The notes under the pieces were generated by a model. The model was not told where the DNA came from, searched no databases, and saw nothing but the letters and a program-made list of their open reading frames with translations. A DNA stretch of 54,173 nucleotides, from NCBI GenBank assembly GCA_019352055.1, contig JABBOB010000009.1, positions 9,791-63,963 on the forward strand, written 5' to 3'. This DNA comes from Acidobacteriota bacterium. GTDB taxonomy: Bacteria > Actinomycetota > Actinomycetes > Actinomycetales > Microbacteriaceae. The position numbers and the translations under genes are program-made. Below, piece after piece: positions 11,477 to 30,666 of the stretch. Every line of letters starts with the position of its first letter. The stretch's first letter is position 1.

Positions 11477-12325
11477 TCAGGAGGTGAGTCGCTCGACCAG
11501 CTCCCGGTAGCGAGCGGCGGTGCGGTGCACGATCTCGTCGGGCAGCTCGGGGGCGATGCCCGTGCCGTCCCAGTGCGCGGTGAGCCAGTCCCGGATGATC
11601 TGCTTGTCGAAGCTGACGCCCCGCCGGCCGTCGGCGTAGGCGGCCGCGTCCCAGTAGCGGCTCGAGTCGGGCGTGAGCACCTCGTCGGCGAGGGTCAGGA
11701 CGCCGTGCGCGTCGTCACCGAACTCGAGCTTCGTGTCCGCGAGCAGCACGCCCTTCTCGTCGGCGACGGCGGCGGCCGTTCGGAAGATCGCGAGGGAGGT
11801 GTCCCGGAGCGCCTCCGCCGTCGCGGCCCCGACCAAGTCGACGACGACCTCGAACGGGATGTTCTCGTCGTGCGCGCCGAGCTCGGCCTTGTACGCGGGT
11901 GTGAAGATCGGCTCCGGCAGACGGTCGCCGTCCTGCAGCCCCTCGGGCAGGGGCACACCGCTGATCGAACCGACCCTGCGGTACTCCGCGTAGCCGCTGC
12001 CCGTCACGACCGCGCGGACGACGCATTCCACCGGGTGCATGGACAGGCGGCGGACCAGCATCGACCGCTCCGCGATCTGGGCCGGCACCGGGATCGCGTC
12101 GTGGGCGAGGTGGTTCGGCACGGACGGCAGCTGCGCGAACCACCACCTGGTCAGTCCGGTGAGCAGCGCGGCCCGCCCCGGGATGGGGCGGGAGAGCACC
12201 TGGTCGAACGCGCTGACGCGGTCGTTCGCGACGAGCAGGAGGAGGTCGCCCCGACCTTCGGGCGCGTACAGATCCCGCACCTTCCCCGCGGTGACGAACT
12301 CGAACCCCGGCAGCTGCGTCCTCAT
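11477..12325 (-). CDS. purC: SAICAR synthetase (phosphoribosylaminoimidazole-succinocarboxamide synthase)
   Basis: 282 residues, the longer form of the enzyme. It joins CAIR and aspartate with ATP. Characteristic segments: GKVRDLYAP near the start (ATP-binding Lys), RVSAFDQVLSRPIPGRAALLTGLTRWWF (residues 38-65), VECVVRAVVTGSGYAEYR (93-110), ADTKLEFG (about 200) and FDKQIIRDWL near the C-terminus. Its ATG overlaps the purD stop (ATGA), so the two pur genes form a coupled unit. Confidence 0.97.
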   Translation of the reverse strand: MRTQLPGFEFVTAGKVRDLYAPEGRGDLLLLVANDRVSAFDQVLSRPIPGRAALLTGLTRWWFAQLPSVPNHLAHDAIPVPAQIAERSMLVRRLSMHPVECVVRAVVTGSGYAEYRRVGSISGVPLPEGLQDGDRLPEPIFTPAYKAELGAHDENIPFEVVVDLVGAATAEALRDTSLAIFRTAAAVADEKGVLLADTKLEFGDDAHGVLTLADEVLTPDSSRYWDAAAYADGRRGVSFDKQIIRDWLTAHWDGTGIAPELPDEIVHRTAARYRELVERLTS

Positions 12326-14411: not shown

Positions 14412-15206
14412 TCACCCTCTCGCGGCGGGCGACTCGATGAAGGCGAGCGCGCGGGTGCGGAACGATCCGGCGGTGGGTGCGTTGAAGTGGTTGCGGCCGG
14501 GGATCGTGAAGAACTCGCCGAGGGGAGCGGCTGCGGCGAGACGCTCCGATGCGGCCAGGATCGGGTCCTCGCTGCCGGCGGCGAAGAGCACCGGCTGCTG
14601 CGGCGGGTCGGCGGGATCCGGCTGCTCGCCGCCGCGCATCCCCTGCACGAGGGCGACGAGCGCCCCGAGATCGTTGCCCGGGATCGCCTCCGCCATCGTG
14701 AGGTACGCCTGGGTGAGGCGGTCGGTGACCGGCGTGCCGGTCGCGATGAACGCCTTCGCCTCGTCGACGCGGAACCGGGTCAGCGGGTCGCCGTCGGGGA
14801 TGCCGCCGAGCACGGCCCGCGTGATGGCGGCGGTGCCCTCGACCGCGGCGTGCCAACCGACCCGGGCGCCGAGCGAGTAGCCGACGTAGACGGCCTCGTC
14901 GACGAGGTAGGTGTCGAGCACCGTCTGCACGTCCTCGACCAGCAGTCCCATCGAGTAGGCGGACGGGTCGTGCGGCTTCCCACTGTTCCCGTGCCCGCGT
15001 TGATCGAGGGCGAGCACCCGATGGCCGGCGCGGTTCAGCTCGCGCACCCACCCCGTCGCGATCCAGTTCGCGTAGGCCGAAGACGCGAAGCCGTGCACCG
15101 CGAGCACGACCGGCCACTCCGGATCGCCCAGGTCGTAGGTCGCGAGCGGCACGCCGTCCGACGTCATGACGCGCTTGGGCTCGGCGGCGGGCGGCAGCAG
15201 GCTCAC
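14412..15206 (-). CDS. alpha/beta hydrolase
   Basis: 264 residues, one alpha/beta-hydrolase domain. The nucleophile elbow is GYSLG with Ser111; the oxyanion loop VHGFASS is at 38-44; DQRGHGNSGKP follows strand 4; the acid is in GSEDPIL and the His in PGRNHFN near the C-terminus. No signal peptide. The start is GTG 15206 with a GGAAGGA ribosome site. Substrate cannot be named; sequence style suggests an esterase/epoxide-hydrolase-like small-molecule enzyme. It lies just downstream of the cation transporter on the same strand (29 bases). Confidence 0.88.
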   Translation of the reverse strand: MSLLPPAAEPKRVMTSDGVPLATYDLGDPEWPVVLAVHGFASSAYANWIATGWVRELNRAGHRVLALDQRGHGNSGKPHDPSAYSMGLLVEDVQTVLDTYLVDEAVYVGYSLGARVGWHAAVEGTAAITRAVLGGIPDGDPLTRFRVDEAKAFIATGTPVTDRLTQAYLTMAEAIPGNDLGALVALVQGMRGGEQPDPADPPQQPVLFAAGSEDPILAASERLAAAAPLGEFFTIPGRNHFNAPTAGSFRTRALAFIESPAARG

Positions 15207-15235
15207 GTCGGCCGATCCTTCCGCATCGGGTGCGG

Positions 15236-16150
15236 TCAGGCGTGGGTGCCGGCCTCGTGAGCGGTGTGGGCCGGCGGTTCGAGCTGGAACGTGGAGTGGG
15301 TCAGCGACACGGCGAAGTGCTCGGCGACGCAGTGCTGCAGCGCGTCGAGCACCCCGGGTGCCGACCCGTTGCGGAAGCAGGCCGGCTCGACCACGACGTG
15401 CGCGGAGAGCACGGGAAGGGAGGAGGAGACGCGGGTCGCGTGCAGGTCGTGGACGGCGAGGACGTGCTCCTGCCGCAGCAGGTGACTGCGGACCTCCTCG
15501 AGGTCGAGCCCGCGTGGCACGGACTCGAGCAGCACGTCGACGGCGTCGCGGAGCAGGAGGAGGGTGCGGGGGACGATGAGCGCGCCGACCAGCAGCGCGG
15601 CGACACCGTCCGCGCGCGTCCAGCCCGTGACGGCGATCACGAGCCCGGCGAGCAGCACGCCGATCGATCCGAGCGCGTCGTTCAGCACCTCGAGCAGCGC
15701 GGCGCGGCTGTTGAGGTCCTCGCCGCCACCGCGGCGCAGGACGCCGAGGGCGACGAGGTTGCCCGCGAGGCCGACGGCGCCGAACACCAGCAGCGCCGGT
15801 CCGGGCACGTCGGTGGGCTCGGCGAAGCGCTTGATGGCCTCGATGACGACGAAGACGCCGACACCGAGCAGCACGGCCGCCTGCGCGGTCGCGCCGAGCA
15901 CCTCCGCGCGGGCCCAGCCGTAGGTGCGACGAGCGGTGGCGGACCGGCCTGCGAGGCGGGCCGCGACGAGCGCGAGCGCGAGCCCGAGCACGTCCGTGAG
16001 CACGTGGCCCGCGTCCACGAGGAGGGCGAGGCTGCCGGTCAGGAGTACGCCGACGATCTCCACGACGAGCACGGTCGCGGTGATCCCGAGCACGGTCGCG
16101 AGCGCGCGCGCCGGGGCGGAGCCCCCGTGCTCGTGCCCGTGCTCATGCAT
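15236..16150 (-). CDS. cation diffusion facilitator (CzcD/ZitB-like metal exporter)
   Basis: 304 residues. Six hydrophobic segments between about 15 and 205, then a C-terminal cytoplasmic domain. The N-terminus is His-rich (MHEHGHEHGG). Metal site residues are visible in the second membrane helix (DAGHVLTDVLGLAL, HxxxD) and the fifth (EVLNDALGS, Asn-Asp pair). It likely exports Zn2+/Cd2+/Co2+ in exchange for protons. The ATG at 16150 is preferred over one 15 bases upstream because AATACT ends six bases before it (leaderless pattern). Confidence 0.93.
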   Translation of the reverse strand: MHEHGHEHGGSAPARALATVLGITATVLVVEIVGVLLTGSLALLVDAGHVLTDVLGLALALVAARLAGRSATARRTYGWARAEVLGATAQAAVLLGVGVFVVIEAIKRFAEPTDVPGPALLVFGAVGLAGNLVALGVLRRGGGEDLNSRAALLEVLNDALGSIGVLLAGLVIAVTGWTRADGVAALLVGALIVPRTLLLLRDAVDVLLESVPRGLDLEEVRSHLLRQEHVLAVHDLHATRVSSSLPVLSAHVVVEPACFRNGSAPGVLDALQHCVAEHFAVSLTHSTFQLEPPAHTAHEAGTHA

Positions 16151-16156
16151 CAGGCA

Positions 16157-16162
16157 AGTATT
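16157..16162 (-). promoter_or_regulatory. -10 element of CDF transporter (leaderless type)
   Basis: AATACT on the minus strand, exactly six bases before the ATG at 16150. Confidence 0.4.
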
Positions 16163-16183
16163 CATCGGTGCGGCGCCGAACGG

Positions 16184-16203
16184 GGGCGGTGTCGAAGCCG
16201 CCC
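16184..16203 (-). terminator. hairpin after the cox operon
   Basis: GGGCGG / CCGCCC arms with an eight-base loop, 40 bases after the stop of the last cox-operon gene and upstream of the CDF gene. Short stem, no U-tract. Confidence 0.4.
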
Positions 16204-16243
16204 GGTGCGTCCTCTGCTCGACCGGTCGGCTCCGCACGCCCGC

Positions 16244-17398
16244 TCAGCGCACGAGGGGCGGCACCTCGGTCGGCAGCTGCGCCGTGCGATGGATCGGGCC
16301 CTGCTCGGCCGAGAGCTGCGCCCCGGTGCCGCCCCAGCGCAGCCCGATGAACTGCGCCGCGATCGACACGGCCGTCTCCTGCGGTGTCCGGGCACCGAGA
16401 TCGAGCCCGATCGGGCTGTGGACGACGTCGATCTCGTCCCTGGTGAGCCCTGCTCTCGCCAGCCGGGTCACCCGGTCCGCATGGGTCGTCCGCGAGCCCA
16501 TCGCGCCGATGTAGGCGACGTGCGGTCCGCGCAGCGCGACCAGCAGGAGCGGCACGTCGAACTTCGGATCGTGGGTCAGGACGCACAGCACGGAGCGCTC
16601 GTCGATCAGGCCGGCCTCGATCTGCTCCGCGAGGTACCGGTCCGGCCGCTTGACGACGAGCTCGTCCACGTCGGGGAAGCGAGCGGGCGTGGCGAACACC
16701 GGTCGCGCATCGCAGACCGTGACGCGGTAGCCGAGGAAGCGGCCGAGCTCGGCGAGCGCGGCCGCGAAGTCGATCGCCCCGAACACCAGCAGTCGAGGGG
16801 CGGGCGCGAAGCTGTTGACGAAGACCCGCATCCCGTCGTCCATGCGCTCGCCCTCGGGCCCGAGGCTCAGCGTCGCGGTGATCCCCGACGCCAGCAGCCC
16901 GCGCGCGTCGTCGGTGACCCGCTGGTCGGCCTCCGGGCTCCCGAGCGTCCCCTCGCTGGTGTCGGGTCGGATGACGAGCCGGGCCCCGACCCGGTGCGGG
17001 TCGACGTGCTCGATGATCGTCGCCACCGCGACGGGGCGGCCGTCCTCGACGTCGGCCGCGATGCCGGCGAGCTGTGGGAACGTCGCTCGTGAGACCGCCT
17101 CGACGAAGACGTCGAGCACGCCGCCGCAGGTGAGGCCGACCGCGAACGCGTCGTCGTCCGCGATCCCGTACCGCTCGAGCTGCGGTGGCGCGCCTCCGAT
17201 CGCCTCGGTCGCCAGCTCGTAGACCGCGCCCTCGACGCAGCCTCCCGAGACCGACCCGGCCGCCGCGCCGTCGGGCGTCACCAGCATCGCCGCCCCCGGC
17301 TCCCGGGGCGCCGACGTGAAGGTGCGCACCACGGTGACGAGTCCGGCCGTCTGGTCGGATCGCCACGCGTCCATCAGCGCGCCGAGCACATCACGCAT
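16244..17398 (-). CDS. XdhC/CoxI-family molybdoenzyme maturation protein
   Basis: 384 residues, full XdhC architecture. N-terminal XdhC domain (residues 15-80, TVVRTFTSAPREPGAAMLVTPDGAAAGSVSGGCVEGAVYE, with the conserved SGGCVE) and a C-terminal Rossmann domain (about 205-350, LLVFGAIDFAAALAELGRFLGYRVTVCDARPVFATPARFP, and YIGAMGSR). The family inserts sulfurated molybdenum cofactor into xanthine-dehydrogenase-type enzymes. It is the last gene of the operon and overlaps coxG by eight bases. A second XdhC-like gene lies earlier in the same operon (20778-21728); the two differ in their C-terminal domains. Confidence 0.92.
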   Translation of the reverse strand: MRDVLGALMDAWRSDQTAGLVTVVRTFTSAPREPGAAMLVTPDGAAAGSVSGGCVEGAVYELATEAIGGAPPQLERYGIADDDAFAVGLTCGGVLDVFVEAVSRATFPQLAGIAADVEDGRPVAVATIIEHVDPHRVGARLVIRPDTSEGTLGSPEADQRVTDDARGLLASGITATLSLGPEGERMDDGMRVFVNSFAPAPRLLVFGAIDFAAALAELGRFLGYRVTVCDARPVFATPARFPDVDELVVKRPDRYLAEQIEAGLIDERSVLCVLTHDPKFDVPLLLVALRGPHVAYIGAMGSRTTHADRVTRLARAGLTRDEIDVVHSPIGLDLGARTPQETAVSIAAQFIGLRWGGTGAQLSAEQGPIHRTAQLPTEVPPLVR

Positions 17399-18008
17399 GC
17401 GGCACCTCCTCGGCCGTGTCGGCCTTGTCGGCCCGCTTCTCCTCCTTGTCGGCGCGCTTGTCCTCCTTGTCGCCGCGGCGGAACATGGAACCGATCGCGC
17501 CGGCGACGAGGGAGACCCCGTTCACGGAGCTCGACCCGGGCTCGCCGGGCTGCGCGTCGTCGCCCTCCGTCATCATCGTCTGGAGGTTGCCGGCGAAGAT
17601 CTTCATGATCTGCTGCGTGACGGAGTTGATCACGCCCTTGCCCATGGCCGCGGCCTTGCCTGACAGCGAGACCTCGACGTGCACGAGCCCGGTGGTCTCG
17701 TCACCCTCCTGCGTGAGCGTCATCGTCGCCGACCCGTCCGCCGTTCCCTGGCCGGCCTTCTCCTGCGCCTTGCCCTGGAAGACCGCGACGTGCTGCTCGT
17801 CGTCGCGGGAGACGAGCTCGATCTGACCGCGGTACTGCATCTTCAGCGGGCCGACCTTCACCGTGACCACGCCCTTGAAGGCGGAGTCCGAGAGCTTCTC
17901 GGTGATCTCGGCCCCCGGCACCGCGGTGGCGACCTGCTCCACGTCCATCACGGTCCGCCAGACCGCGTCGATGGGAGCGGTGACCTTGAAGGTGCTGTCG
18001 AGTTCCAT
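17391..18008 (-). CDS. coxG: CoxG-like SRPBCC protein
   Basis: 205 residues. An SRPBCC/Bet v1-like domain fills residues 1-150 (FKVTAPIDAVWRTVMDVEQVATAVPGAEI, VKVGPLKMQYRGQIELV, HVEVSLSGKAAAMGKGVINSVTQQIMKIFAGNL), the carbon monoxide dehydrogenase subunit G family. CoxG is known to anchor CO dehydrogenase to the membrane in characterised systems. The C-terminal 50 residues are a charged K/E/D-rich tail with repeats of DKEDKRADKEEKRADKA. A coiled or disordered tail of this kind is not typical and could mediate membrane or partner contact. It overlaps the following XdhC gene by eight bases. Confidence 0.88.
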   Translation of the reverse strand: MELDSTFKVTAPIDAVWRTVMDVEQVATAVPGAEITEKLSDSAFKGVVTVKVGPLKMQYRGQIELVSRDDEQHVAVFQGKAQEKAGQGTADGSATMTLTQEGDETTGLVHVEVSLSGKAAAMGKGVINSVTQQIMKIFAGNLQTMMTEGDDAQPGEPGSSSVNGVSLVAGAIGSMFRRGDKEDKRADKEEKRADKADTAEEVPHA

Positions 18009-18037
18009 GCGTGTTCTCCTCGGTGTTGATGATGGCG

Positions 18038-18060
18038 TCACCGAGTCGAGGACTCGGTGA
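18038..18060 (-). promoter_or_regulatory. hairpin spanning the coxE stop codon
   Basis: TCACCGAGTC / GACTCGGTGA, perfect 10-bp arms with a three-base loop, covering the end of coxE and its TGA. It sits in the largest internal gap of the operon (29 bases before coxG) and could weaken readthrough into coxG/xdhC, or protect the upstream message. Confidence 0.5.
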
Positions 18061-19288
18061 CGGGGTACGCGGTCGCGGTCGGGACGACGTCCTTCCCGAT
18101 CGCACGGATGAGCTCGTGGAGCGCCGAGTAGCTGTGGCCGCTCACGAAGGCGTCGCAGTAGGGCAGCGCCGCCGCCATCCCGCCGGTCAGCGGCCGGTAT
18201 CCCGGCGCGGCTTTCCGCGGATTGACCCAGACGATCCGGAACGCGAGTCGTCGCAGCCGGGCCATCTGGTGCCCGATGTCCGCCGGGTCGTCCTGCGCCC
18301 ATCCGTCGGAGAGGATCACGACCACGGCGCCGCGGGCGAGCCCGCGACGCCCGAACCCGTCGATGAACGCGCGGAGGCCGTCCGCCAGGCGCGTCCCGCC
18401 CGCCCAGTCCCGACTGCCGGCAGCCGCCGCCTGCATCGCCTCGTCCGGGTCCCGGCGCCCGAGATGCCGGGTGAGCCGGGTGAGCCGGGTCGCGAACGTG
18501 AACGCCTCCGCCTGCCGGCTGACCACCGCCGCCTGCATGAACGAGAGGTACGCGCGCGTGTACGGCTCCATCGACGCGGACACGTCGCACAGCAGCACCA
18601 GCCGGCGAGGGCGCCGGCGAGGGCGGGAGTGCAGGAGACGGGCCGGGTCGCCGCCGGTGCGGAACGCGGCGCGGGCAGTCCGCCGCATGTCCAGACGGTC
18701 GCGCGACCGCGGCGAGCGCTGCTCACGCCGGCCGGCGCGCCACGGCGTCTCGAGCGCGAGGGCCGCGATGAGCTCCCTGATCCGTGCGAGCTCGTCCGGT
18801 CGCAGCGTGGCGAAGGCCGTGTCGTGCAGCCGTTCCTCGCGACTCGCGGCGAGCAGGAACGCATCCGTGCCGGTCGCCTCGTCGTCGCCCTCCCGGTCGG
18901 ATCCAGCGGCGGCGGGAGGGGCCTCCTGCATCGGTGCGCCGGCGACCCGGGCGGTCTCGCGGTCGTCCGCCGCGCGCCGCCGCGTCGTCGTCGCGTGCTC
19001 CAGGTCGGCGCCGCTGCGGGAGTCCGCGAAGTCGAGCTCGCCCGAGAACACCGCGTCGAACACCCGGTCGAATCGCGGGACCTGCTCGATCGAGTCGACG
19101 AAGATCACGCGACAGGCCCAGTACAGCTCCGAACGGCGACGGGGCGGCGCGAGATGGAGCGCGTCGACCAGCCACGCCGCCCGCTCGGGGCCGCCGACGA
19201 TGCCGACGCGCCGGAGCGCGGTCGCGAACGCGACCGCCAGCACGGCCGCATCGATGGTGAACGCCCGCGTGTCGTCGCCGTCACGCAT
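18038..19288 (-). CDS. coxE: CoxE-like von Willebrand factor A protein
   Basis: 416 residues. Partner of the CoxD AAA+ ATPase; together they are required for making the copper/sulfur part of the CO dehydrogenase active site. The C-terminal VWA domain starts near 228 (LVLLCDVSASMEPYTRAYLSFMQ) and has an intact MIDAS motif DVSAS plus a later TDGWAQDD-like SDGWAQDD loop. The N-terminal 220 residues contain the conserved FDRVFDAVFSGELDF and a low-complexity middle. It overlaps coxD by eight bases and precedes coxG. Confidence 0.93.
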   Translation of the reverse strand: MRDGDDTRAFTIDAAVLAVAFATALRRVGIVGGPERAAWLVDALHLAPPRRRSELYWACRVIFVDSIEQVPRFDRVFDAVFSGELDFADSRSGADLEHATTTRRRAADDRETARVAGAPMQEAPPAAAGSDREGDDEATGTDAFLLAASREERLHDTAFATLRPDELARIRELIAALALETPWRAGRREQRSPRSRDRLDMRRTARAAFRTGGDPARLLHSRPRRRPRRLVLLCDVSASMEPYTRAYLSFMQAAVVSRQAEAFTFATRLTRLTRHLGRRDPDEAMQAAAAGSRDWAGGTRLADGLRAFIDGFGRRGLARGAVVVILSDGWAQDDPADIGHQMARLRRLAFRIVWVNPRKAAPGYRPLTGGMAAALPYCDAFVSGHSYSALHELIRAIGKDVVPTATAYPVTESSTR

Positions 19289-20189
19289 CGGCGCTCATCA
19301 GCCAGTCGCCGCCTCGCGCGCCGACCAGCGCGAGATCGTCCCGGTTCTTGAGCACCGCGCCCCAGGTCAGGGCGGCGGACTCCCCGTCGATGCTCTCGAC
19401 ACCGAGCACGGTGAACGCCGACACCCAGTCGATCACCTCGGCGACCCCCGGCGGCTTCACCAGCTCCAGCGAGCGGAGCCGCTCGACCGCCGAGACGGCC
19501 TGCACGACCACCGGCTCGACGGCGGACGGCACGCGCCGCCGCACGATCTCGAGGACGCGCGCTGGACCGGGGAAATCGATCCAGTGGTACAGGCAGCGTC
19601 GGGTGAGCGCGTCGTGCAGGTCCCGCGTGCGGTTCGAGGTGAGGATGACGATCGGCGGCACCGTCGCATGGATCGTGCCCAGCTCGGGCACCGTCACCGA
19701 CGCCTCGGCGAGCGCCTCGAAGGTGAACGCCTCGAACTCCGCGTCGGCCCGGTCGATCTCGTCGAGGAGCAGGACCGCCGGCCGGGGGCCCGGGTGCTCG
19801 ATCGCCTGCAGCAGCGGGCGCCGCAGCAGGAAGCCGGGGGTGAAGAGCGCCGCGTCGTCGAGGTCGACCCCGTCGACCTCGGATCGCCGGATCGCGAGCA
19901 GCTGCCGCTGGTAGTTCCACTCGTAGAGCGCTTCGCCGGCGTCGATCCCCTCGTAGCACTGGAGCCGGATGAGCGGGGTGTGCAGGAACGCGGCGAGCGC
20001 CTTGGCGGCCTCGGTCTTGCCGACACCGGCCTCGCCTTCGAGGAGCAGGGGCTGCCGAAGCCGCACGGCCAGGAACAGCGCGGTGACGAGGCCGCGGTCG
20101 GCGACGTAGTCGCCCGCATCGAGACCCGTCGCGAGCGCGCCGACGTCCGGGACGAGGTCGGCGACATCGGCGTCCGCGCCCGCGCTCAC
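19281..20189 (-). CDS. coxD: CoxD-like MoxR-family AAA+ ATPase
   Basis: 302 residues. Walker A GEAGVGKT at 52-59, Walker B VLLLDEIDRAD at about 128-138, sensor-1 ILTSNRTRDLHDALTRRC with the Arg finger region. In Oligotropha, CoxD reshapes apo-CO dehydrogenase so that the Mo-S-Cu cluster can be built. The start GTG 20189 overlaps the stop of the preceding MobA-like gene (GTGA); a longer in-frame start upstream lies inside that gene and is not protein-like. The ATPase and VWA partner genes overlap each other, which fits a fixed stoichiometry. Confidence 0.94.
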   Translation of the reverse strand: MSAGADADVADLVPDVGALATGLDAGDYVADRGLVTALFLAVRLRQPLLLEGEAGVGKTEAAKALAAFLHTPLIRLQCYEGIDAGEALYEWNYQRQLLAIRRSEVDGVDLDDAALFTPGFLLRRPLLQAIEHPGPRPAVLLLDEIDRADAEFEAFTFEALAEASVTVPELGTIHATVPPIVILTSNRTRDLHDALTRRCLYHWIDFPGPARVLEIVRRRVPSAVEPVVVQAVSAVERLRSLELVKPPGVAEVIDWVSAFTVLGVESIDGESAALTWGAVLKNRDDLALVGARGGDWLMSADA

Positions 20190-20791
20190 TCGAGTGCCGC
20201 CGCGGAGGCGAGGATCGCCCGATAGTCCTCTTCGGTGTCCACGTCGCGGGGGACCGGGCCCGGGACGCGGACGCGCGCGACGGCCGACCCGAGTCGTTCG
20301 ATCAGCTTCCACACCCCGCGGTCGCCGTGCAGGCCGCGGAGGGCCGGGAACGTGGCGCGGGAGAGGGCGAACGGATGACCGATGCCGTTGTCGTACCGGG
20401 TCACCGCGATCGGCGCGTTGCCGCGTCCCCGGGCGAGCGCGGCGATCGTGTCGACCTGCACGTCGGGCTGATCACCGAGCAGCAGGACGACGGCGCCGAT
20501 GTCCTGCCGGACCTCCCGGATGGTGCGGGCGATGGACGACGAGCAGCCGGTGGCGTACTCGTCGTTGACGACCACCTCGAAACCGGTGGTGTCGACCGCA
20601 GCCCGCACCACGTCGGCCGAACCGCCCAGGGCGAGCAGACGCTGTTCGAACGGATAGCCGCGGGCGACGTCGAGCACGGCGTCGACCAGCACACCGCCCC
20701 GGTACGGCAGCAGCTGCTTCGGCCTGCCGAGGCGGCTCGATCCGCCGGCGGCGAGGACGAGGGCCGCGAGCGGGGTCTCACGCGAGGGCAT
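20186..20791 (-). CDS. MobA/MocA-like nucleotidyltransferase
   Basis: 201 residues, a GT-A-fold NTP transferase. N-terminal LVLAAGGSSRLGRPKQLLPYRG (residues 10-31) is the nucleotide-binding and catalytic loop, LLLGDQPDV (about 95-103) the metal-binding Asp motif, and IGHPFALSR follows. Relatives (MocA, MobA) attach CMP or GMP to molybdopterin. CODH uses the CMP form, so a cytidylyltransferase of this type in a cox operon is expected. It overlaps the XdhC-YHS gene by 14 bases and the coxD gene by 4 bases. Confidence 0.88.
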   Translation of the reverse strand: MPSRETPLAALVLAAGGSSRLGRPKQLLPYRGGVLVDAVLDVARGYPFEQRLLALGGSADVVRAAVDTTGFEVVVNDEYATGCSSSIARTIREVRQDIGAVVLLLGDQPDVQVDTIAALARGRGNAPIAVTRYDNGIGHPFALSRATFPALRGLHGDRGVWKLIERLGSAVARVRVPGPVPRDVDTEEDYRAILASAAALE

Positions 20792-21728
20792 AGCGCGTGG
20801 GGTCCCTGCTGAAGGCGGCCCGACAGCCGTCGGAGCAGAACCAGACGGTCCCGCCGTCGTGCTCGGTGTGCGGCGTCGCATCGACCGTGCTGACGGTCAT
20901 CCCGCACACGGGATCGATCGCGGTCGTCGGAGCGCCGGGGTGCTCCTCATCCGTGCCGGCGTGGTCGGCCGCCTCGTGGTGCTCGTGGGTCCGGCTCGCC
21001 GAGGCGCCGGTCGTCGAGCGCACCTGGACGAGCTCGGCGAGCACGCCGAGCGCGATCTCCGAGGGGGTGGTGCCGCCGAGACGGAGGCCCGCGGGCGTGT
21101 GCACGCGGTGGCGCAGCTCGTCGTCGACGTCCAAGGACGCGACGACCGCCGATCCCCGCTTCTCGCTCGCGATCAAGCCGATGTAGGGCACGCCTACCCG
21201 GAGGGCGCGCTCGAGCGCGGGCTCCTCGCCCCGACCGTGCCCCGCGACGACGACGGCCGCGTCCTCGGGCGAGGGCTGCCAGGTGTCGCCGTCGACCAGG
21301 TCGATCTCGAAACCGAGCGCGGCGCCGAGCGCCGCCAGCGACTGCGCGACGGGCGTCTCGCCGACGATGACGAGCCGGGCGGACGGCACCACCGGTTCGA
21401 GGAACACGTCGATCGATCCACCGGAGAGACACGGGTTGTGCACCTCCACCGCGCCCTCCTCCTCCCGGCGGCCGATGTCACCGGGTCGCACCTGCAGCAG
21501 CACCGGCTCGCCGGAGGCGAGCGCCCGCAGGCTGAACTCGCGCACGGACGACTCCACGCAGGTACCGCCCACGAAGCCGGTCATGGCGCCCGCCGCATCG
21601 AGCACGGCGACGTCGCCGGCTCGGGCGCTCGTCGGATGCTGTGTCCGGACCACGGTCGCGCGCACGAACGGCTGGCGGAGTCGCTCGAGGTCGCGCTGCT
21701 TCTCGGCGACGGCTGAGGAGACCGTCAT
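20778..21728 (-). CDS. XdhC-like protein fused to a YHS domain
   Basis: 316 residues. Residues 1-60 are an XdhC N-terminal domain with GGTCVESSVREF (equivalent of SGGCVE), 115-240 an XdhC Rossmann domain (LVIVGETPVAQSLAALGAALGFEIDLVDGDTW, YIGLIASEKRGSAVVASL). A linker rich in His, Glu and Asp (HEHHEAADHAGTDEEHPGAPTTAIDP) leads to a C-terminal YHS domain (DPVCGMTVSTVDATPHTEHDGGTVWFCSDGCRAAF), with the two Cys that bind metals. YHS domains are linked to copper handling; in a Mo-Cu enzyme operon this could present copper to the apo-enzyme. That role is inference. Starts 20 bases after coxL. Confidence 0.9.
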   Translation of the reverse strand: MTVSSAVAEKQRDLERLRQPFVRATVVRTQHPTSARAGDVAVLDAAGAMTGFVGGTCVESSVREFSLRALASGEPVLLQVRPGDIGRREEEGAVEVHNPCLSGGSIDVFLEPVVPSARLVIVGETPVAQSLAALGAALGFEIDLVDGDTWQPSPEDAAVVVAGHGRGEEPALERALRVGVPYIGLIASEKRGSAVVASLDVDDELRHRVHTPAGLRLGGTTPSEIALGVLAELVQVRSTTGASASRTHEHHEAADHAGTDEEHPGAPTTAIDPVCGMTVSTVDATPHTEHDGGTVWFCSDGCRAAFSRDPTRYALA

Positions 21729-21747
21729 CGGCCTGGTTCCTTCACGA

Positions 21748-24171
21748 TCAGATCGGCGGGGTGGCGTGGCCCTGCATCGCGTCCCACACCCGGCCGGGAG
21801 TGCACGGCATGTCGATCCCCGTCACGCCGAGCGGGCTGAGCGCGTCGATGACGGAGTTGACGATCGCAGCCGGTGAACCGACGGTGGCCGACTCGCCGAT
21901 GCCCTTCGCGCCGATGGGGTGATGCGGCGACGGCGTGACCGTGAAGCCGGTCTCCCAGTCGGGCACCTCCATCGCGGTGGGGATCAGGTAGTCCATGAAG
22001 GATCCGCCCAGGTTGTTCCCCTCGGGATCGAACTCGATGATCTCCATGAGCGCCATCCCGACGCCGTCGGTGAGGCCGCCGTGGACCTGGCCCTCGATCA
22101 CCATCGGGTTGATCCGGGTCCCGCAGTCGTCCACCGCGAGGAAGCGCCGCACCGTCACCTTGCCGGTGCCGCGATCGATGTCCGTCACGCAGAAGTAGGC
22201 GCCGTACGGGTAGGTCAGGTTCGGCGGGTCGTAGGTGACCTCGGCGTCGAGGTTGCCGTCGACTCCGTCCGGCAGCTCCATCGTGCCGTGAGCGGCCATG
22301 GCGATCTCCTGGATCGTCCTGCTCGCGGTGGGGTCGCCCTTGACGAACCAGCGGCCCTTCGCCCACTCGAGGTCCTCCGGGCGGGTCTCGAGCATGGCGG
22401 CCGCGATGAGTCGCGCCTTGTCGCGGACCTTCCTGGTGACGAGCGCAACCGCGGCGCCGCTCACCGGGGTGGAACGGCTGCCGTACGTGCCCAGCCCGAA
22501 CGGCGTCCGGTCCGTGTCGCCGTGCACGACCTCGATGTCCTCGGGAGGGATGCCGATCTCCTCCGCGACGATCTGCGCGAACGTCGTCTCGTGGGCCTGG
22601 CCCTGGCTCTGCACGGAGATGCGCACGACGGCCTTGCCGGTCGGGTGGATCCGCAGCTCCGCGCCGTCCGCCATGCCCAGGCCGAGGATGTCCATGTGCT
22701 TGCGGGGACCGGCGCCGACCCCTTCGGTGAAGAAGGAGATGCCGATGCCCATCAGCTCGCCGCGCGCCCGCTTCTCGACCTGCTCCTGTCGCAGCTGGTC
22801 GTAGCCGATGAGGCCCATGGCATGGCGCATGGTCTTCTCGTACTGCCCGGAGTCGTACTCGAACCCGGCCTTGTTGTCGTACGGGAACTGCTCGGGCCTG
22901 ATGAAGTTCTTGAGGCGGAGCTCGGCTGGGTCCATCTTCAGCTCGAGCGCGAGCCGGTCGATCATGCGCTCGACGAAGTACGAGGCCTCGGTCACGCGGA
23001 ACGAGCAGGCGTAGGCCACGCCGCCCGGCGCCTTGTTCGTGTAGACGGAGGTGACCTTGCCGTAGACCGCGTCCCAGGTGTAGCTGCCCGGGAAGAGGTT
23101 GAAGAACCCGGCCGGGTACTTCGTCGGCTGCGCGGTGCCGTTGAACGCGCCGTGATCGGCGAGGACGTTCGCCCTGATGCCCAGCAGCCGGCCGTCCTTC
23201 GTGGCCGCGATCTCGCCCTGCATGATGTAGTCCCGCGCGAACGAGGTCGACATCAGGTTCTCCGACCGGTCCTCCATCCACTTGACGGGATGTCCGGTGA
23301 CGATCGAGCCCACGATGGCGAGGACGTAGCCGGGGTAGATGCCGACCTTGTTGCCGAAGCCGCCGCCGATGTCCGGGGAGATCAGATGGATCTTGTGCTC
23401 GGGGATGCCGGACACCATCGCGATGATCGTCCGGTGCGCGTGCGGCGCCTGCGACGTCTCGTAGAGGGTGAGCTCGCCGGACACCGCGTTGAAGTCGGCG
23501 ACGGCGCCGCAGGTCTCCATCGGTGCGGGATGGACCCGCGGGTAGACGATCTCCTGCGCCACGACCACGTCGGCCGCGGCGAAGACCGCTCTGGTCGCGG
23601 CTTCGTCACCGCACTCCCAGTCGGCGATGTGGTTGTCCGCTCGCCCCTCGATGTCGTCGCGGATGACCGGTGCGTCGGCGTCGAGCGCGTGCCGCAGGTC
23701 GACGACCGGGGGGAGGACGTCGTAGTCGACGACGATGGACTCGAGCGCGTCGCGGGCCGCGTAGCGGTCGTCGGCGATGACGAACGCGACCTCCTGGCCC
23801 TGGAACCGGACCTTGTCGGTCGCCAGCACCGCCTGGACGTCGTAGGACAGGGTCGGGATCCACGCGAGCTTCAGCGGCTCGAGGTCCTTGCCGGTGAGCA
23901 CGGCGCGGACGCCCGGTCGGGACAGCGCCTCGCTGGTGTCGATCGAGACGATCCTCGCGTGCGCGACCGGCGCTCGGAGGATCGCCCCGTGGAGCATCCC
24001 CGGGAGCACGACGTCGTCCGTGTAGCGGCCCTGACCGCGGATGAACCGCGGGTCCTCCTTGCGCTGCAGCCGACCGAAGCCGATCGGCCGGTCGGCGTCG
24101 GCGGCTGCGGGGTTGTGATCGTGCAGCCGCCCGTGCTCGGCACCGACGAGGGGTTCTTCGACCAGCGTCAT
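21748..24171 (-). CDS. coxL: aerobic carbon monoxide dehydrogenase, large (molybdenum) subunit, form I
   Basis: 807 residues. It oxidises CO to CO2 at a Mo-S-Cu centre with molybdopterin cytosine dinucleotide. The active-site loop reads VAYACSFR (386-392) with Cys389, the ligand for copper, and thus the form I signature AYxCSFR rather than the form II AYRGAGR. Gln241 (SQAPH) and Glu760 (KGIGE) match the known active-site Gln and Glu. Other family segments: GFGRLQRKEDPRFIRGQGRYTDDV, GGGFGNKVGIYPGY, PTGKAVVRISVQSQGQAHETTFAQI. It overlaps coxS by four bases (ATGA). The gene order M-S-L is that of classical cox operons. All catalytic residues appear intact. Confidence 0.96.
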   Translation of the reverse strand: MTLVEEPLVGAEHGRLHDHNPAAADADRPIGFGRLQRKEDPRFIRGQGRYTDDVVLPGMLHGAILRAPVAHARIVSIDTSEALSRPGVRAVLTGKDLEPLKLAWIPTLSYDVQAVLATDKVRFQGQEVAFVIADDRYAARDALESIVVDYDVLPPVVDLRHALDADAPVIRDDIEGRADNHIADWECGDEAATRAVFAAADVVVAQEIVYPRVHPAPMETCGAVADFNAVSGELTLYETSQAPHAHRTIIAMVSGIPEHKIHLISPDIGGGFGNKVGIYPGYVLAIVGSIVTGHPVKWMEDRSENLMSTSFARDYIMQGEIAATKDGRLLGIRANVLADHGAFNGTAQPTKYPAGFFNLFPGSYTWDAVYGKVTSVYTNKAPGGVAYACSFRVTEASYFVERMIDRLALELKMDPAELRLKNFIRPEQFPYDNKAGFEYDSGQYEKTMRHAMGLIGYDQLRQEQVEKRARGELMGIGISFFTEGVGAGPRKHMDILGLGMADGAELRIHPTGKAVVRISVQSQGQAHETTFAQIVAEEIGIPPEDIEVVHGDTDRTPFGLGTYGSRSTPVSGAAVALVTRKVRDKARLIAAAMLETRPEDLEWAKGRWFVKGDPTASRTIQEIAMAAHGTMELPDGVDGNLDAEVTYDPPNLTYPYGAYFCVTDIDRGTGKVTVRRFLAVDDCGTRINPMVIEGQVHGGLTDGVGMALMEIIEFDPEGNNLGGSFMDYLIPTAMEVPDWETGFTVTPSPHHPIGAKGIGESATVGSPAAIVNSVIDALSPLGVTGIDMPCTPGRVWDAMQGHATPPI

Positions 24172-24665
24172 GACTGCACCGTCTCCTGCTCGACGGCGGC
24201 TGCACCCGCGGGGTGATCAGCCGCCCATTGGATGGCTCGCACGATGGTCGCGTACCCGGTGCACCGGCAGATCTGGCCCGAGATCGCCTCGCGGATCTCG
24301 AGCTCCGTCGGATGCGGGTTCCGGTCGAGCAGCTCGCGGCCGGTGATCAGCATGCCTGGGGTGCAGAAGCCGCACTGCAGCCCGTGCTCCTCGATGAATC
24401 CCTGCTGGATGGGGTCGAGCGTCCCGGCCGTCTCCAGTCCCTCCACGGTCCGGACCGCGTGGCCGTCGGCCATGGCCGCGAGCACGGTGCAGGACTTGAC
24501 CGGGGTGCCGTCCAGGGAGACGACGCACGTGCCGCAGTTGGAGGTGTCGCACCCCCAGTGGGTCCCGGTGAGACCGAGGTCGTCGCGGATGAAGTGCACG
24601 AGCAGCGTGCGCGGCTCGATGTCCTTCGCCACGTCCTCGCCGTTGACCGACATCGTCACATGCAT
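24168..24665 (-). CDS. coxS: aerobic carbon monoxide dehydrogenase, small (Fe-S) subunit
   Basis: 165 residues, two [2Fe-2S] domains. Plant-ferredoxin-like Cys39, Cys44, Cys47, Cys59 (CDTSNCGTC then KSC) bind the distal cluster; Cys98, Cys101, Cys133, Cys135 (CGFC and CRC) bind the cluster near the Mo centre. It passes electrons from CoxL to the FAD of CoxM. The ATG at 24665 lies two bases after the coxM stop, and its stop overlaps the coxL start, so all three subunits are made in step. Confidence 0.96.
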   Translation of the reverse strand: MHVTMSVNGEDVAKDIEPRTLLVHFIRDDLGLTGTHWGCDTSNCGTCVVSLDGTPVKSCTVLAAMADGHAVRTVEGLETAGTLDPIQQGFIEEHGLQCGFCTPGMLITGRELLDRNPHPTELEIREAISGQICRCTGYATIVRAIQWAADHPAGAAAVEQETVQS

Positions 24666-24667
24666 GC

Positions 24668-25543
24668 TCACGCCTCCTGTCGCCGGGCACGGGCGATGGC
24701 CCGCTTGAGGACTCGCTGCGTCAGCTCGCCGGCGAGGTGTCGCTTGTACTCGACCGAACCGCGCTGGTCGGTCATGGGATCGACGGCCGCGCTGGTCATC
24801 CGGCCGGCCTCCGTGATCAGCGCGTCGGTCGGCCGGTGCCCGATCAGGACCGCCTCGGCGTCCGTCACCCGACCGGACAGGCCGACGGCGGTCACGCCGA
24901 TGGCCGCGTCCTCGATCGTGCCGTCCGCGGCCAGCGTCACGGATCCGCCCGCCGCGGCGACGGCCCAGTCGCCGACGCGGCGCTCGACCTTCTCGTAGGA
25001 GCTGGAGGAACGGGGCCGGATCGGGATGCGGACCTCGACGAGGATCTCGTTGAACTCCACGGCGGTCTCGTACGGCCCCTGGTGGAACTCGTCCATCCCG
25101 ATGACGCGCTCCCCGGTCGCGCTGCGGATGACCGCCTGTGCACCGAGCACGGCGCAGACCGTCGACAGGTCCTCGGCCGGGTCCGCCTGGCAGAGCGAGC
25201 CGCCGATCGTGCCACGGTTGCGGACGATCGGATCCGCGACGACCCGTTCCGCCTCGGTCATGATCGGGAAGAGGGCTGCGATCTCCGCCGACTCGAGCAG
25301 AGTGCGGTGGCGGGCGAGCGCGCCGATCCGGAGCTCGTCGCCGTGCCGGCGGACGTAGTCGAGCTCGTGCAGCTCGTTGATGTCGATGAGCCAGTCGGGT
25401 CGCGCCAGACGCAGCTTCATCATCGGCAGCAGGCTGTGGCCGCCGGCGACGACCAGCGCATCGTCGCCGTAGCGGGTCAGCAAGGCGATCGCGTCGTCGA
25501 GCGATGTCGCTCTGGCGTACTCGAACGGTGCTGGGATCTGCAT
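24668..25543 (-). CDS. coxM: aerobic carbon monoxide dehydrogenase, medium (FAD) subunit
   Basis: 291 residues. FAD-binding AGGHS (33-37, in VVAGGHSLLPMMKLRL) and TIGGS (112-116, in GTIGGSLCQADPAED) are intact, and RGSVEYKRHLAG near 275 is the usual C-terminal motif of this family. It accepts electrons from CoxS and hands them to the respiratory chain. The ATG at 25543 has an AAAGGGAG ribosome site; the frame is open another 18 codons upstream. It is the first gene of the nine-gene operon, divergent from a LysR gene across a 123-bp control region. Confidence 0.95.
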   Translation of the reverse strand: MQIPAPFEYARATSLDDAIALLTRYGDDALVVAGGHSLLPMMKLRLARPDWLIDINELHELDYVRRHGDELRIGALARHRTLLESAEIAALFPIMTEAERVVADPIVRNRGTIGGSLCQADPAEDLSTVCAVLGAQAVIRSATGERVIGMDEFHQGPYETAVEFNEILVEVRIPIRPRSSSSYEKVERRVGDWAVAAAGGSVTLAADGTIEDAAIGVTAVGLSGRVTDAEAVLIGHRPTDALITEAGRMTSAAVDPMTDQRGSVEYKRHLAGELTQRVLKRAIARARRQEA

Positions 25544-25666
25544 GGCCGCTCCCTTTGGTGACACCATCGCCCATCGCGTCCTTGCGTGGAGGTGCACCTG
25601 CCCGGCAGACCCTGCCGGGCGCGGGTCACGGGTGTCAACATCGACATAAGCGAAGGGTTATCGGGC
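25544..25666. promoter_or_regulatory. coxM/LysR divergent control region
   Basis: On the minus strand a consensus TTGACA lies at 25638-25633 with GCAGGG 17 bases on (25615-25610), a poor -10. That -10 lies inside a perfect inverted repeat GCCCGGCA (25600-25607), five bases, TGCCGGGC (25613-25620). Upstream of the -35, ATAA and TTAT (25646-25661) form a short inverted repeat typical of LysR-type activation boxes, directly ahead of the LysR start. A weak -10 with a good -35 and an upstream LysR-like box suggests activator-dependent expression of the cox operon. Confidence 0.55.
25600..25620. promoter_or_regulatory. palindrome in the cox control region
   Basis: GCCCGGCA / TGCCGGGC, 8-bp perfect arms with five bases between, overlapping the predicted coxM -10. 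Candidate operator or start-site hairpin. Confidence 0.5.
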
Positions 25667-26674
25667 ATGGGCATGACCTTGACCCAGCTTCGGACGTTCG
25701 CCCTCGTGGCGAGGCTCGGCTCGCTCCGCGCCGCCGCCGCCGCGCTCGGCGTCAGCGAACCGGCGGTGTCCTCAGCCGTCGCCGCCCTACGGGCGGAGCT
25801 CGGGGACCCCCTCTTCACCCGGACGCCGCGGGGCATCATGCTCACCGCCGGCGGCCGCACCCTCGCCGCGCACGCGGAGGAGATCGTCGGCCTCGCCGAC
25901 GACACGAGGCGCGACGTCGCGCACGCCTCGTCGAGCGGGTGGGAGCTGCGGGTGCTCGCGACCGCGGCGTTCGCCGAGCACGCCGCCGGGCGGCTGTTCG
26001 ACCTCTTCGGCAAGTGGGTCGCGTCCGACGCGCTCGATGTCGTCGTCGAGGACGCGGACGACATCGGCGCCATGCTGCGGGAGCGCGCCTACGACATCGC
26101 CCTGGGCGCGCGCCCGGCGCTCGCGAACAGCCTCGGGCTCGAGCTCGTGCCGTTCTTCAAGTACCAGCGGATCATGGTCGCCTCCGTGCGGCACCCGCTC
26201 GCGGCCCTGACCGGTCCGATCCCGCTCAGCCGACTGCTGTCCGTGCCGTGGTTCGCCGGGCCCGGCGGGTTCGAGCCGCTGACGGAGGAGGGCAGGTGGT
26301 TCGGGCGGCTCAGCGAGCTCCCGGACGTCGTCGAGCTGACGAGCGAGACCGACGCGCTCGCCGCGGTGGCCGGCGGCGAGGGCGTGATGCTCGCGCTCGC
26401 GCATGTCGCGGCGCCCCGGCTCCGCGGCGGGGTGGAGAAGGTGGACCAGGAGTCGGCGTCGTCCGGCGACCTGGTGCGGCTGTCCGTCACCGACACGCCG
26501 CTCTCCGGGGTCTGGTGGGCGACGACCTTGGACGGCGGCCGCGCCACCGAGTCCGCGCAGATCCTGCGGCGGCTCGTCACCACCGCCGAAGCGACGACGG
26601 CGATCCTCGCCAGCGCGGGGTCACGCGGGCTGTCCCGGCGCGGCAACAAGTTCCACGTCGCGCTCTGGAGCTGA
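25667..26674 (+). CDS. LysR family transcriptional regulator
   Basis: 335 residues. The N-terminal winged helix-turn-helix (LTQLRTFALVARLGSLRAAAAALGVSEPAVSSAVAALRAELGDPLFTRTPRGIMLTAGG) spans about residues 3-62; the rest is a periplasmic-binding-type effector domain with the central hinge (LGARPALANSLGLELVPFF, PWFAGPGGFEPL). It is divergent from the cox operon and most likely its activator, in the position of the LysR-type regulator of other cox operons. The start is uncertain between 25667 and 25673; GAAGGG precedes the first at a suitable distance. Its 3-prime end is 10 bases from the convergent truncated moaA, an unusual junction. Confidence 0.88.
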   Translation: MGMTLTQLRTFALVARLGSLRAAAAALGVSEPAVSSAVAALRAELGDPLFTRTPRGIMLTAGGRTLAAHAEEIVGLADDTRRDVAHASSSGWELRVLATAAFAEHAAGRLFDLFGKWVASDALDVVVEDADDIGAMLRERAYDIALGARPALANSLGLELVPFFKYQRIMVASVRHPLAALTGPIPLSRLLSVPWFAGPGGFEPLTEEGRWFGRLSELPDVVELTSETDALAAVAGGEGVMLALAHVAAPRLRGGVEKVDQESASSGDLVRLSVTDTPLSGVWWATTLDGGRATESAQILRRLVTTAEATTAILASAGSRGLSRRGNKFHVALWS

Positions 26675-26684
26675 ATCCGGCGGC

Positions 26685-27539
26685 TCAGCCGATCGCAGGC
26701 GCGCAGAACGTGCGGGTGACCGACGCGATGATCCCCACCGTCGCGGGGCCGCCGTCCACCGACCACTCCTCCGCCGGTGAGGACGGATCGCTCCGCGGCC
26801 GCTCGGTCAGGACGGACCGTTCGACGAGCACGCGCAGCAGATCGGCCGCGGTGTCCATCTCGTCCCGTCGCCAGGTCTCGTCTGCGTCGAGCGGCATCTC
26901 CTCGATGAACCGCAGCTGCGTCTCGTGCTGCAGCGACCACGCCAGCAGCTCGTCGGCCTCGTCGAGCGTCGATCGCATCAGGACCGCGTTCCCCTTCAGC
27001 GGCCGGAGGCCGGCCGCGCGTGCTGCGGCGATGCCGGCGAACATCGCGGGGAGACGGTCGCGCCGCGTCGGCTCGGCCACATGCGCACGGTCCACCGTGT
27101 CCAGCGACACGTCGACGCGGGTGAGGTCCGCCGCGACCAGCGCCCCCGCGGTCTTGTCGAGGCCGATCCCGTTCGTCGTGATCGCCAGCGCGACGGCGGG
27201 GGCGGCCTCGTGCGATCTCGCGACGATCTCGACCATGTCGCCGTGGACGAGCGGCTCGCCGCCGGTGAAGCGGACCTCGCCGATCCCCAGGTCGCGTGCT
27301 CCGATGCGCACGAGTCGCGCGATCTCCGTCGACGTCAGGAGCAGACGCTTCGCGATCGAGGGCGGCCCCTCGGCGGGCATGCAGTAGGTGCAGCGGAGGG
27401 AGCACTCCTCGGTGACGGAGATCCCGAGGTGGCGCGCGACCCGCCCGGACCGGTCGATGAGCTCGTCGCCCGGCGGGCGATCCAGCATCCTCGACCGTGG
27501 CGACGACGACAGGAGCGGGCCGGGGCCGACGGCGGACAT
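26685..27539 (-). pseudogene. moaA: moaA, GTP 3',8-cyclase, truncated at the C-terminal cluster
   Basis: 284 residues left of about 330-360. MoaA is a radical SAM enzyme that starts molybdenum cofactor synthesis and carries a second [4Fe-4S] cluster near its C-terminus. Here the N-terminal radical SAM motif is intact (CSLRCTYC, Cys46, 50, 53), as are [33 protein letters not shown] and [19 protein letters not shown]. It then ends in APAIG and a stop, where normal proteins read GACDRTRLTADG. Adding a single base restores FCAACDR, so a one-base deletion caused the stop, but no homologous tail follows: within a few codons the sequence is the antisense of the LysR end. The CxxC-N-C cluster site and GTP-binding tail are gone. 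The start is uncertain. Confidence 0.8.
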
Positions 27540-27618
27540 GGGCGCATGCCGGCCTTGGGGACCCAGGCTCAGGATCGGCGCGGGGGTGGCGGGACAGCGG
27601 TGCCGAGCACGACGGAAA

Positions 27619-27659
27619 GACGCCGGGCAGCCAGTGCGGGGGAGTCGCTGCCCGGCGTC
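27619..27659. repeat. 13-bp perfect inverted repeat upstream of truncated moaA
   Basis: Perfect 13-bp arms with a 15-base loop, in the leader of moaA on the minus strand. Stem stability would be very high. It does not match what I recall of the molybdenum cofactor riboswitch. Confidence 0.6.
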
Positions 27660-27802
27660 ATCATCCGGGAGACCGTGGCAGGACCTCGCGGGGGAAGTGC
27701 GGCCCTGCCGGTCCAGGCACCCCGGGGGATGGGTGCGGAGGACCGTTCCGGTCGTATCGGGTAGTGCAGCGGTGGGTACCGCCGGGACCAAGGTAGCACT
27801 GG

Positions 27803-27832
27803 ACGGGGACAGAACGACCTGTCTGTCCCCGT
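27803..27832 (-). terminator. purF terminator hairpin
   Basis: ACGGGGACAGA / TCTGTCCCCGT, 11-bp perfect arms with an eight-base loop, 31 bases after the purF stop on the minus strand; a smaller C/G hairpin (27841-27855) lies just before it. No clear U-tract. Confidence 0.6.
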
Positions 27833-27863
27833 GTCGTCTGCCCCCAGAGCGGGGGACGGCGGC

Positions 27864-29333: not shown

Positions 29334-29355
29334 TCGGGTGGAGATCCCCCTGGTT

Positions 29356-29361
29356 TAGGCT
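29356..29361 (+). promoter_or_regulatory. -10 element of purM (leaderless type)
   Basis: TAGGCT, exactly six bases before GTG 29368. The divergent purF start is only 34 bases away, so the two promoters overlap in a very small region and may be co-regulated by one site. Confidence 0.45.
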
Positions 29362-29367
29362 CGAGTG

Positions 29368-30641: not shown

Positions 30642-30666
30642 GTCGTCAGGCAGCCCGATCACACGG

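Follow-up and report, generated by a model that had tools for sequence, protein, structure and literature searches.

The stretch analysed here, hereafter the window, comprises 54,173 nucleotides of contig JABBOB010000009.1 from a genome of the family Microbacteriaceae. On its reverse strand, at 16244-25543, it carries a complete nine-gene operon for a form I (Mo-Cu) carbon monoxide (CO) dehydrogenase, in the order coxM-S-L-F-mocA-D-E-G-I. We put at about 85% the probability that this form I operon, itself probably functional, was gained by transfer within the family as part of a block of about 11.5 kb and is used with its assembly proteins as proposed below, where the role of one copper-related domain is graded separately. 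The operon itself is ordinary, a further carrier of a widespread trait. Its significance lies in the probable transfer of a trace-gas metabolism into a genus whose six other sampled species lack it, with a clean site and a decaying moaA as witness, and in a conserved domain on a factor needed for copper insertion, through which the question of how copper reaches the buried Mo-Cu site becomes approachable.

CoxL contains the active-site residues Gln241 (in SQAPH), Cys389 (in the loop AYACSFR, residues 386-392) and Glu760 (in GESATVG), all three correctly named in an earlier reading made from the DNA letters alone (the sequence-only reading), which took the enzyme for a true form I and not a form II relative. 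Motif, family model and tree agree on that point. The match to TIGR02416 (E=0, 1317.2 bits) exceeds the cut-off of 991.15 by more than 300 bits, and the best chain in the PDB is 8uem_A (named CoxL; 1338 bits over residues 23-807), with the same AYACSFR loop. The phylogeny that had been suggested as a check groups CoxL with form I and sets five form II rows, 39-42% identical to the window's CoxL, apart at a support of 100; this is a quick tree, whose finer branching we do not use. Among 396 Actinomycetota genomes, for which two CoxL and five CoxF candidates were scored per genome so that counts are lower bounds, CoxL identities leave a gap from 46% to 53% between the form II and form I levels. 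The operon is, by its sequence, that of a form I aerobic CO dehydrogenase of the actinobacterial type. The same genome has a second molybdopterin-binding oxidoreductase (G000:C86:12348-14552, locus L002), which is 28% identical to CoxL and not form I, and which is probably of the xanthine or aldehyde dehydrogenase type.

The genes for the three subunits and the maturation genes coxD, coxE, coxF and coxG are all present together, and Pfam and TIGR models, along with comparison to Oligotropha (Afipia) carboxidovorans, confirm the nine-gene set first described and place it on the reverse strand. Each of the accessory proteins CoxD, E, F, G and I finds its namesake as best match among five Oligotropha accessory proteins, and every match of CoxS to small-subunit models of the xanthine oxidase family lies under its equivalog cut-off. 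The compact layout also holds, with overlaps of 4-14 and gaps of 2-29 bases, given a GTG start for coxD and an inner ATG for mocA: coxM and coxS are 2 bases apart, coxS and coxL overlap by 4, coxL and coxF are separated by 19, coxF and mocA overlap by 14, mocA and coxD by 4, and coxD and coxE by 8, followed by a gap of 29 before coxG and an overlap of 8 with coxI. The gene order is similar in many named actinobacterial loci. Three features go unmentioned in the sequence-only reading, namely the LysR gene divergent from coxM, the YHS domain that ends the CoxF-type protein, and a truncated moaA.

The best reading of its origin is transfer between genera of the Microbacteriaceae, because the operon lies in an insertion, is patchily distributed, is accompanied by a foreign moaA remnant and shows a mismatch between CoxL and RpoB relationships; a transferred trait had been among the suggestions of the sequence-only reading, and these four lines uphold it, leaving a small residual probability to old presence with losses. 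The operon, a divergent LysR gene and the truncated moaA are inserted between purF and the gene of a CDF cation transporter, which adjoin in three congeners (G001, G002 and G003). Window positions 14435-16150 and 27612-31000 align collinearly to G001 with 187 bp between them, and the corresponding flanks lie 178 bp apart in G003 and 72 bp apart in G002, there with slightly different edges (loci aligned on both flanks: L119, L120 and L121). Because of the inserted block (16151-27611), PurF and PurD are 14.3 kb apart here as against 2.5-4.3 kb in all six congeners. In the other three (G004, G005 and G006) the pur genes are close together, but the CDF stretch is unaligned, and purD and purF are separated by other sequence. 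No cox remnant was aligned at the congeners' pur locus. The CDF gene (15236-16150) was considered as a tenth member of the operon and rejected; its DNA is conserved in the cox-less G001, G002 and G003, and the gene is thus native to the host. A mis-binned contig, with the operon belonging to another organism in the sample, would suit the fragmented assembly (124 contigs) and the operon-less congeners; it is extremely unlikely, as both flanks, on one contig, align with the two nearest congeners at 80-85% in long pieces and PurF is 94% identical to that of G001, so that the idea could survive only through chimeric joins on both sides.

The distribution of the trait was followed in 398 Microbacteriaceae genomes (matches at E<=1e-150, two candidates scored per genome, so that counts are again lower bounds). 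At least 16 of them have a match, 15 of form I (this genome counted, 10 genera) and one of form II only (G092, 42%). Within the genus, form I is found in one of seven sampled genomes, the six congeners being without it. Close relatives of the operon occur in many named Cryobacterium genomes and in some other Microbacteriaceae, and loci from genomes of the family group show 100% identity across 5.4 kb to those of Diaminobutyricibacter tongyongensis, Cryobacterium gelidum, Cryobacterium fucosi and a metagenome-assembled genome labelled Acidobacteria. We note that the record JABBOD010000019.1 (L003, genome G094), a metagenome-assembled genome titled 'Acidobacteria bacterium isolate G2_35', groups within Microbacteriaceae and has one of the three closest CoxL sequences; its title seems to be a misassignment. 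The family named by the sequence-only reading is right, and the family group includes genomes of Diaminobutyricibacter and Cryobacterium; the genome itself yielded no 16S sequence. Its further suggestion of an under-recognised trait stands in part: there are many carriers in Cryobacterium and elsewhere in the family, our search found no publication joining Cryobacterium with coxL, and the string 'Microbacteri' is absent from the main text of a survey of 709 CoxL sequences (PMC6794299), whereas some papers do mention both Microbacteriaceae and coxL.

Comparison of genes shows the mismatch. CoxL of the window is 90-91% identical to those of G094, G150 and G338, which belong to three other genera, versus 80-83% for other Microbacteriaceae, while RpoB is 86.9% and 87.3% identical to G150 and G338 versus 85.5-88.1% to other non-congeneric Microbacteriaceae rows (93.8-98.1% to three congeners; G094 has no RpoB match, and the RpoB tree holds 24 of 28 rows). 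PurD, similarly, is 63% identical to all three versus 59-63% in the six other family genomes tested. In a tree of five proteins (Cox M, S, L, F and D), taking in 31 of 37 collected loci (L018, L020, L022, L034, L076 and L077 being left out), the window and the genera of G094, G150 and G338 form one clade (100/100), nested in a larger one (100/99) that takes in every Micrococcales row used. The moaA fragment lacks two of the three cysteines of the C-terminal cluster and groups apart from the clade (96/97) that the genus's own moaA sequences form; an intact native copy lies on another contig (C4). A full-length moaA stands near cox in G150 and G141, and in a search of 88 loci moaA was also found near cox in Diaminobutyricibacter, with two weak 35% matches in Arthrobacter loci.

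Several observations weigh against transfer. The block has no clear mobile-element mark: the window contains no tRNA, and of 57 direct-repeat families the 20 listed include none at the boundaries. The approximately unbiased (AU) test does not reject a single clade of all Microbacteriaceae CoxL (p 0.68), the constrained tree being the better one, and old presence followed by many losses is therefore compatible with that tree; for RpoB, the test against a tree that unites the sampled cox genera with the congeners gives a marginal result (p 0.041). A quick CoxL tree that placed the window outside a group of Geodermatophilaceae, Micrococcaceae and other Microbacteriaceae was set aside when the better tree was found under constraint. 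Vertical inheritance, with cox present in the ancestor of Microbacteriaceae or of Micrococcales and lost in most lineages including the six congeners, fits the AU test on CoxL and the joint grouping of the Micrococcales rows in the five-protein tree. It would require several losses within the genus, yet without any aligned remnant at the pur locus, and it leaves unexplained both the foreign moaA fragment and a CoxL identity of about 90% to three genera whose RpoB (for two of them) and PurD are no closer than average, and we regard it as unlikely.

A LysR gene lies upstream in 9 of 14 loci examined, with an operator-like element in all nine; in the five loci without a LysR match the element is missing too. 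The element ATAACCCTTCGCTTAT is identical in the window, G094, G150 and G338 (loci L125, L126 and L127 for the latter three), has one base changed in two Arthrobacter loci (L008 and L025), and takes the form ATAACCTTTCGCTTA in G141, G106 and Diaminobutyricibacter. We take ATAACCCTTCGCTTAT to be a LysR operator that overlaps the cox promoter, and the LysR protein would control the divergent cox promoter there. In G106 the element occurs in two tandem copies (L132:7323 and L132:7427), which lie upstream of coxM by 223 and 119 bases and are each followed by TTGGCA or TTGACA. The operon might instead be a decaying, unexpressed relic, in line with the adjacent moaA, whose match to its model stops at position 261 of 336, and with a -10 region that appears by eye weaker than in relatives. 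We think this very unlikely: the nine cox genes and the LysR gene are open, active-site residues, operator and -35 box are kept, and an intact native moaA exists elsewhere in the genome.

The factor encoded directly after coxL has both XdhC domains and is closer to Oligotropha CoxF (34% identity, E 1e-34) than to CoxI (E 7e-10), and its C-terminal YHS domain scores above the Pfam gathering threshold. An alignment of 38 sequences with the domain, from the window and 37 of 75 named YHS-bearing loci, shows no variation at its Asp and three Cys candidate ligands, D272, C275, C298 and C302. An AlphaFold2 model of the protein has a mean pLDDT (predicted local distance difference test) of 91, with blocks of residues 271-310 at 94-97 and linker stretches below 50. 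A fold search with this model gave six matches at E<=0.001 from two structures (2we7/2we8 and 3on5), presumably of the XdhC family. The YHS part alone has weak sequence matches to ribosomal L24e (E 0.004) and phenol hydroxylase (E 0.014). L24e and toluene-4-hydroxylase are named as YHS/TRASH proteins in a study of a mycobacterial adenylyl cyclase (PMC4626032).

The domain follows form I CO dehydrogenase. The motif D-x2-C...C-x3-C is present in the CoxF tail of 75 of 80 named form I loci, and in those same loci it is found in the tails of none of 80 CoxD, 77 CoxE, 80 CoxM and 80 CoxS; none of 58 CoxI-type proteins has it, after removal of three rows that were CoxF itself, and Pfam YHS is absent from the four CoxI-type proteins scanned. 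At least 60 of the 396 Actinomycetota genomes have a form I CoxL (53-100% identity), all 60 with a CoxF match, and five further genomes have a CoxF match; in four of these a fragment of form I CoxL stands at the edge of a contig, and in the other the contig ends inside coxF (second, N-terminal pieces of G497 and G526 were left out of these counts, and two CoxL pieces of G520 were joined). Of these 65 coxF genes 58 encode a YHS domain, four are cut by a contig end and three lack it (58 of 61 testable); for five of the YHS-bearing genes a single open frame was confirmed through to the domain. No CoxF match at E<=1e-20 was seen, with five candidates per genome, in 65 genomes whose strong match was only at the form II level. 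Outside Actinomycetota, Pfam YHS is found on an XdhC protein of cox clusters in Thermomicrobium, the haloarchaeon Natronorubrum and Paraburkholderia; in Deinococcus the score, 29.1 bits, falls slightly short of the cut-off.

Mutants of Oligotropha in coxE and coxF make a CO dehydrogenase without copper, and the authors propose CoxF as the copper supplier, leaving its exact function to protein-level studies (PMC4240915). A mycobacterial adenylyl cyclase owes its response to copper, and to no other metal tested, to a YHS domain at its C-terminus, whose proposed ligands, an Asp and three Cys, are spaced as in CoxF (PMC4626032). Copper binding by the YHS domain of CoxF may be expected by analogy, and as CoxE and CoxF are needed for copper insertion, a role of the domain as copper carrier becomes a testable idea. 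Our proposal is that copper is carried to the Mo-Cu site of aerobic CO dehydrogenases predominantly, and perhaps ancestrally, by the YHS domain at the end of CoxF, the domain binding the metal through Asp-x2-Cys...Cys-x3-Cys, swinging on a disordered linker and loading the sulfurated Mo site; we rate this at just short of an even chance. The chemistry of CO dehydrogenase and, in Oligotropha, the requirement for CoxD, CoxE and CoxF are established from other work. In the scheme as a whole, CoxMSL would oxidise CO at the Mo-S-Cu site, and electrons would travel via FAD, with CoxG taking part, to quinone and the aerobic chain; MocA would make the cytosine dinucleotide cofactor, which the CoxI-type XdhC protein would handle; CoxD would sulfurate Mo; and CoxE with CoxF would insert copper, the flexibly tethered YHS domain presumably binding it by its Asp and three Cys and handing it to the sulfurated site.

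Some evidence weighs against such a carrier. In the Oligotropha work neither the coxE nor the coxF mutant contains either of the two proteins, and the authors place copper at another CoxF motif, MCPSHGTM (PMC4240915). Pfam YHS is absent from Oligotropha CoxF and from several actinobacterial CoxF proteins, and the domain is thus not universally required; if the carrier proposal is true, its absence from the model organism would explain why its role was missed. The main rival, that the YHS domain senses copper or serves CoxF as a structural or docking element instead of carrying the copper destined for the enzyme, which may sit elsewhere on CoxF, is plausible, at somewhat below even odds. It can point to CoxF proteins that lack YHS, to the Cys of MCPSHGTM, which corresponds by position to the invariant C100 of NPCxSGG in the window's CoxF, and to biochemical precedent, which is for sensing in the copper-activated cyclase, the YHS domain of toluene hydroxylase having no metal in the crystal (PMC4626032). 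It accounts less well for the way YHS tracks form I CO dehydrogenase, no CoxF match having turned up in sampled genomes with form II alone, and for the tails of eight YHS-less CoxF proteins, five of which carry Cys/His clusters instead (e.g. EHHCDAHGH, QHCAAHGH and CCGHG) and three of which do not. These clusters (HCxAHGH or CCGHG in place of YHS) belong to three named mycobacteria and two unnamed actinobacteria; at L052, L059, L062, L199 and L196 they read EHHCxAHGH, QHCAAHGH or CCGHG and look like substitutes for a metal site. Our search found no publication linking YHS with CO dehydrogenase or XdhC, weak evidence of novelty given that most subscription papers lie outside it; CO dehydrogenase and YHS co-occurred only in unrelated rows of selenoprotein tables.

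RuBisCO (PF00016), by which a carboxydotroph would be recognised, was found in none of four genomes, namely this one and those of its three nearest cox kin. This makes CO unlikely as a carbon source and the scavenging of trace CO likely, and the host is most likely, judging from its gene content, a carboxydovore on organic carbon that scavenges trace CO. Against this, its genome is a 124-contig assembly, 93% complete, in which the absence of RuBisCO could be a gap. Mycobacterium smegmatis respires CO to sub-atmospheric levels with an enzyme induced on carbon starvation (PMC6794299), and by analogy the host probably uses CO under starvation. Coordinates of the features are given in Table 1. Elsewhere in the window are an RND-type transporter (35490-38759; ACR_tran, 676 bits) and a regulator of the PadR family whose N-terminus is rich in His (46633-47256).

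Table 1. Features of the inserted block and its surroundings (window positions); the names of the purine genes flanking the block are in part presumed.
Feature	Position	Strand	Basis or remark
Inserted block, ~11.5 kb (cox operon, divergent LysR, truncated moaA)	16151..27611	.	missing from congeners' pur locus
coxI-type XdhC protein, without YHS	16244..17398	-	XdhC_CoxI + XdhC_C; nearer Oligotropha CoxI than CoxF
coxG, SRPBCC-type membrane-recruitment factor	17391..18008	-	PF06240 COXG; PDB 8uds_D CoxG E=1e-20
coxE, von Willebrand A protein	18038..19288	-	PF05762 VWA_CoxE 199 bits
coxD, MoxR-type AAA+ ATPase	19281..20189	-	AAA_5; 52% to Oligotropha CoxD; GTG start
mocA-like NTP transferase, probable molybdopterin cytidylyltransferase	20186..20791	-	PF12804; TIGR03310 111.6 bits, under cut-off 186
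coxF-type maturation factor, XdhC_CoxI + XdhC_C + C-terminal YHS	20778..21728	-	Pfam; Oligotropha CoxF match
YHS domain of CoxF-type factor, residues 271-314	20787..20918	-	PF04945 35.2 bits, cut-off 30.3; candidate ligands D272, C275, C298, C302
coxL, Mo-Cu catalytic subunit, form I	21748..24171	-	TIGR02416 1317 bits; AYACSFR, Q241, E760
coxS, 2x[2Fe-2S] small subunit	24168..24665	-	ATG at 24665; xanthine oxidase family small-subunit models
coxM, FAD-binding medium subunit	24668..25543	-	PF00941 FAD_binding_5 + PF03450 CO_deh_flav_C; ATG at 25543
Probable -35 box TTGACA of cox promoter	25633..25638	-	after same element in related loci; predicted from consensus
Candidate LysR operator ATAACCCTTCGCTTAT	25646..25661	-	intergenic, kept in related loci
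LysR-type regulator, divergent from coxM	25667..26674	+	PF00126 + PF03466; 76-79% identical in L125, L126, L127
Truncated foreign moaA	26685..27464	-	TIGR02666 positions 1-261 of 336, below cut-off
purL	6763-9420		purine gene near block
purQ	9557-10255		purine gene near block
purD	12322-13587		purine gene flanking block
purF	27864-29333	-	purine gene flanking block
AIR synthase-type gene, probably purM	29365-30516	+	purine gene flanking block

Comparison with known systems begins with the PDB entries 8uem and 8uds, which we take to be those of Mycobacterium smegmatis, a member of a different family from the host. Like the window, that organism has a form I CO dehydrogenase whose CoxL bears AYACSFR (8uem), together with a CoxG homologue (8uds). 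The mycobacterial loci examined differ from the window in having coxG before coxE and a coxI-like gene upstream; CoxF lacks YHS in four of them and has it in four, the CoxF of M. smegmatis not being among those. The pHCG3 cluster of Oligotropha shares with the window the M-S-L core, D, E, F, G, two XdhC proteins and a LysR gene nearby, with identities of 57% for CoxL, 52% for CoxD, 31% for CoxE, 34% for CoxF, 27% for CoxG and 25% for CoxI. Its CoxF, in contrast, has no YHS domain, and its coxF follows coxE rather than coxL, with Calvin-cycle genes thereafter.

The cox loci of Arthrobacter, Cryobacterium and Diaminobutyricibacter share with the window most of the gene order (in some of them MocA or the far end was undetected), YHS on CoxF and, where a LysR gene is present, the same operator element, although their CoxL is 79-83% identical and falls in a different sub-clade. 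Finally, the YHS adenylyl cyclase of Mycobacterium phlei, like the window's CoxF, has a C-terminal YHS domain with Asp-x2-Cys and Cys-x3-Cys (D178, C181, C204 and C208); there the domain is joined to a copper-sensing cyclase (PMC4626032), whereas in the window it is joined to a maturation factor of the XdhC family.

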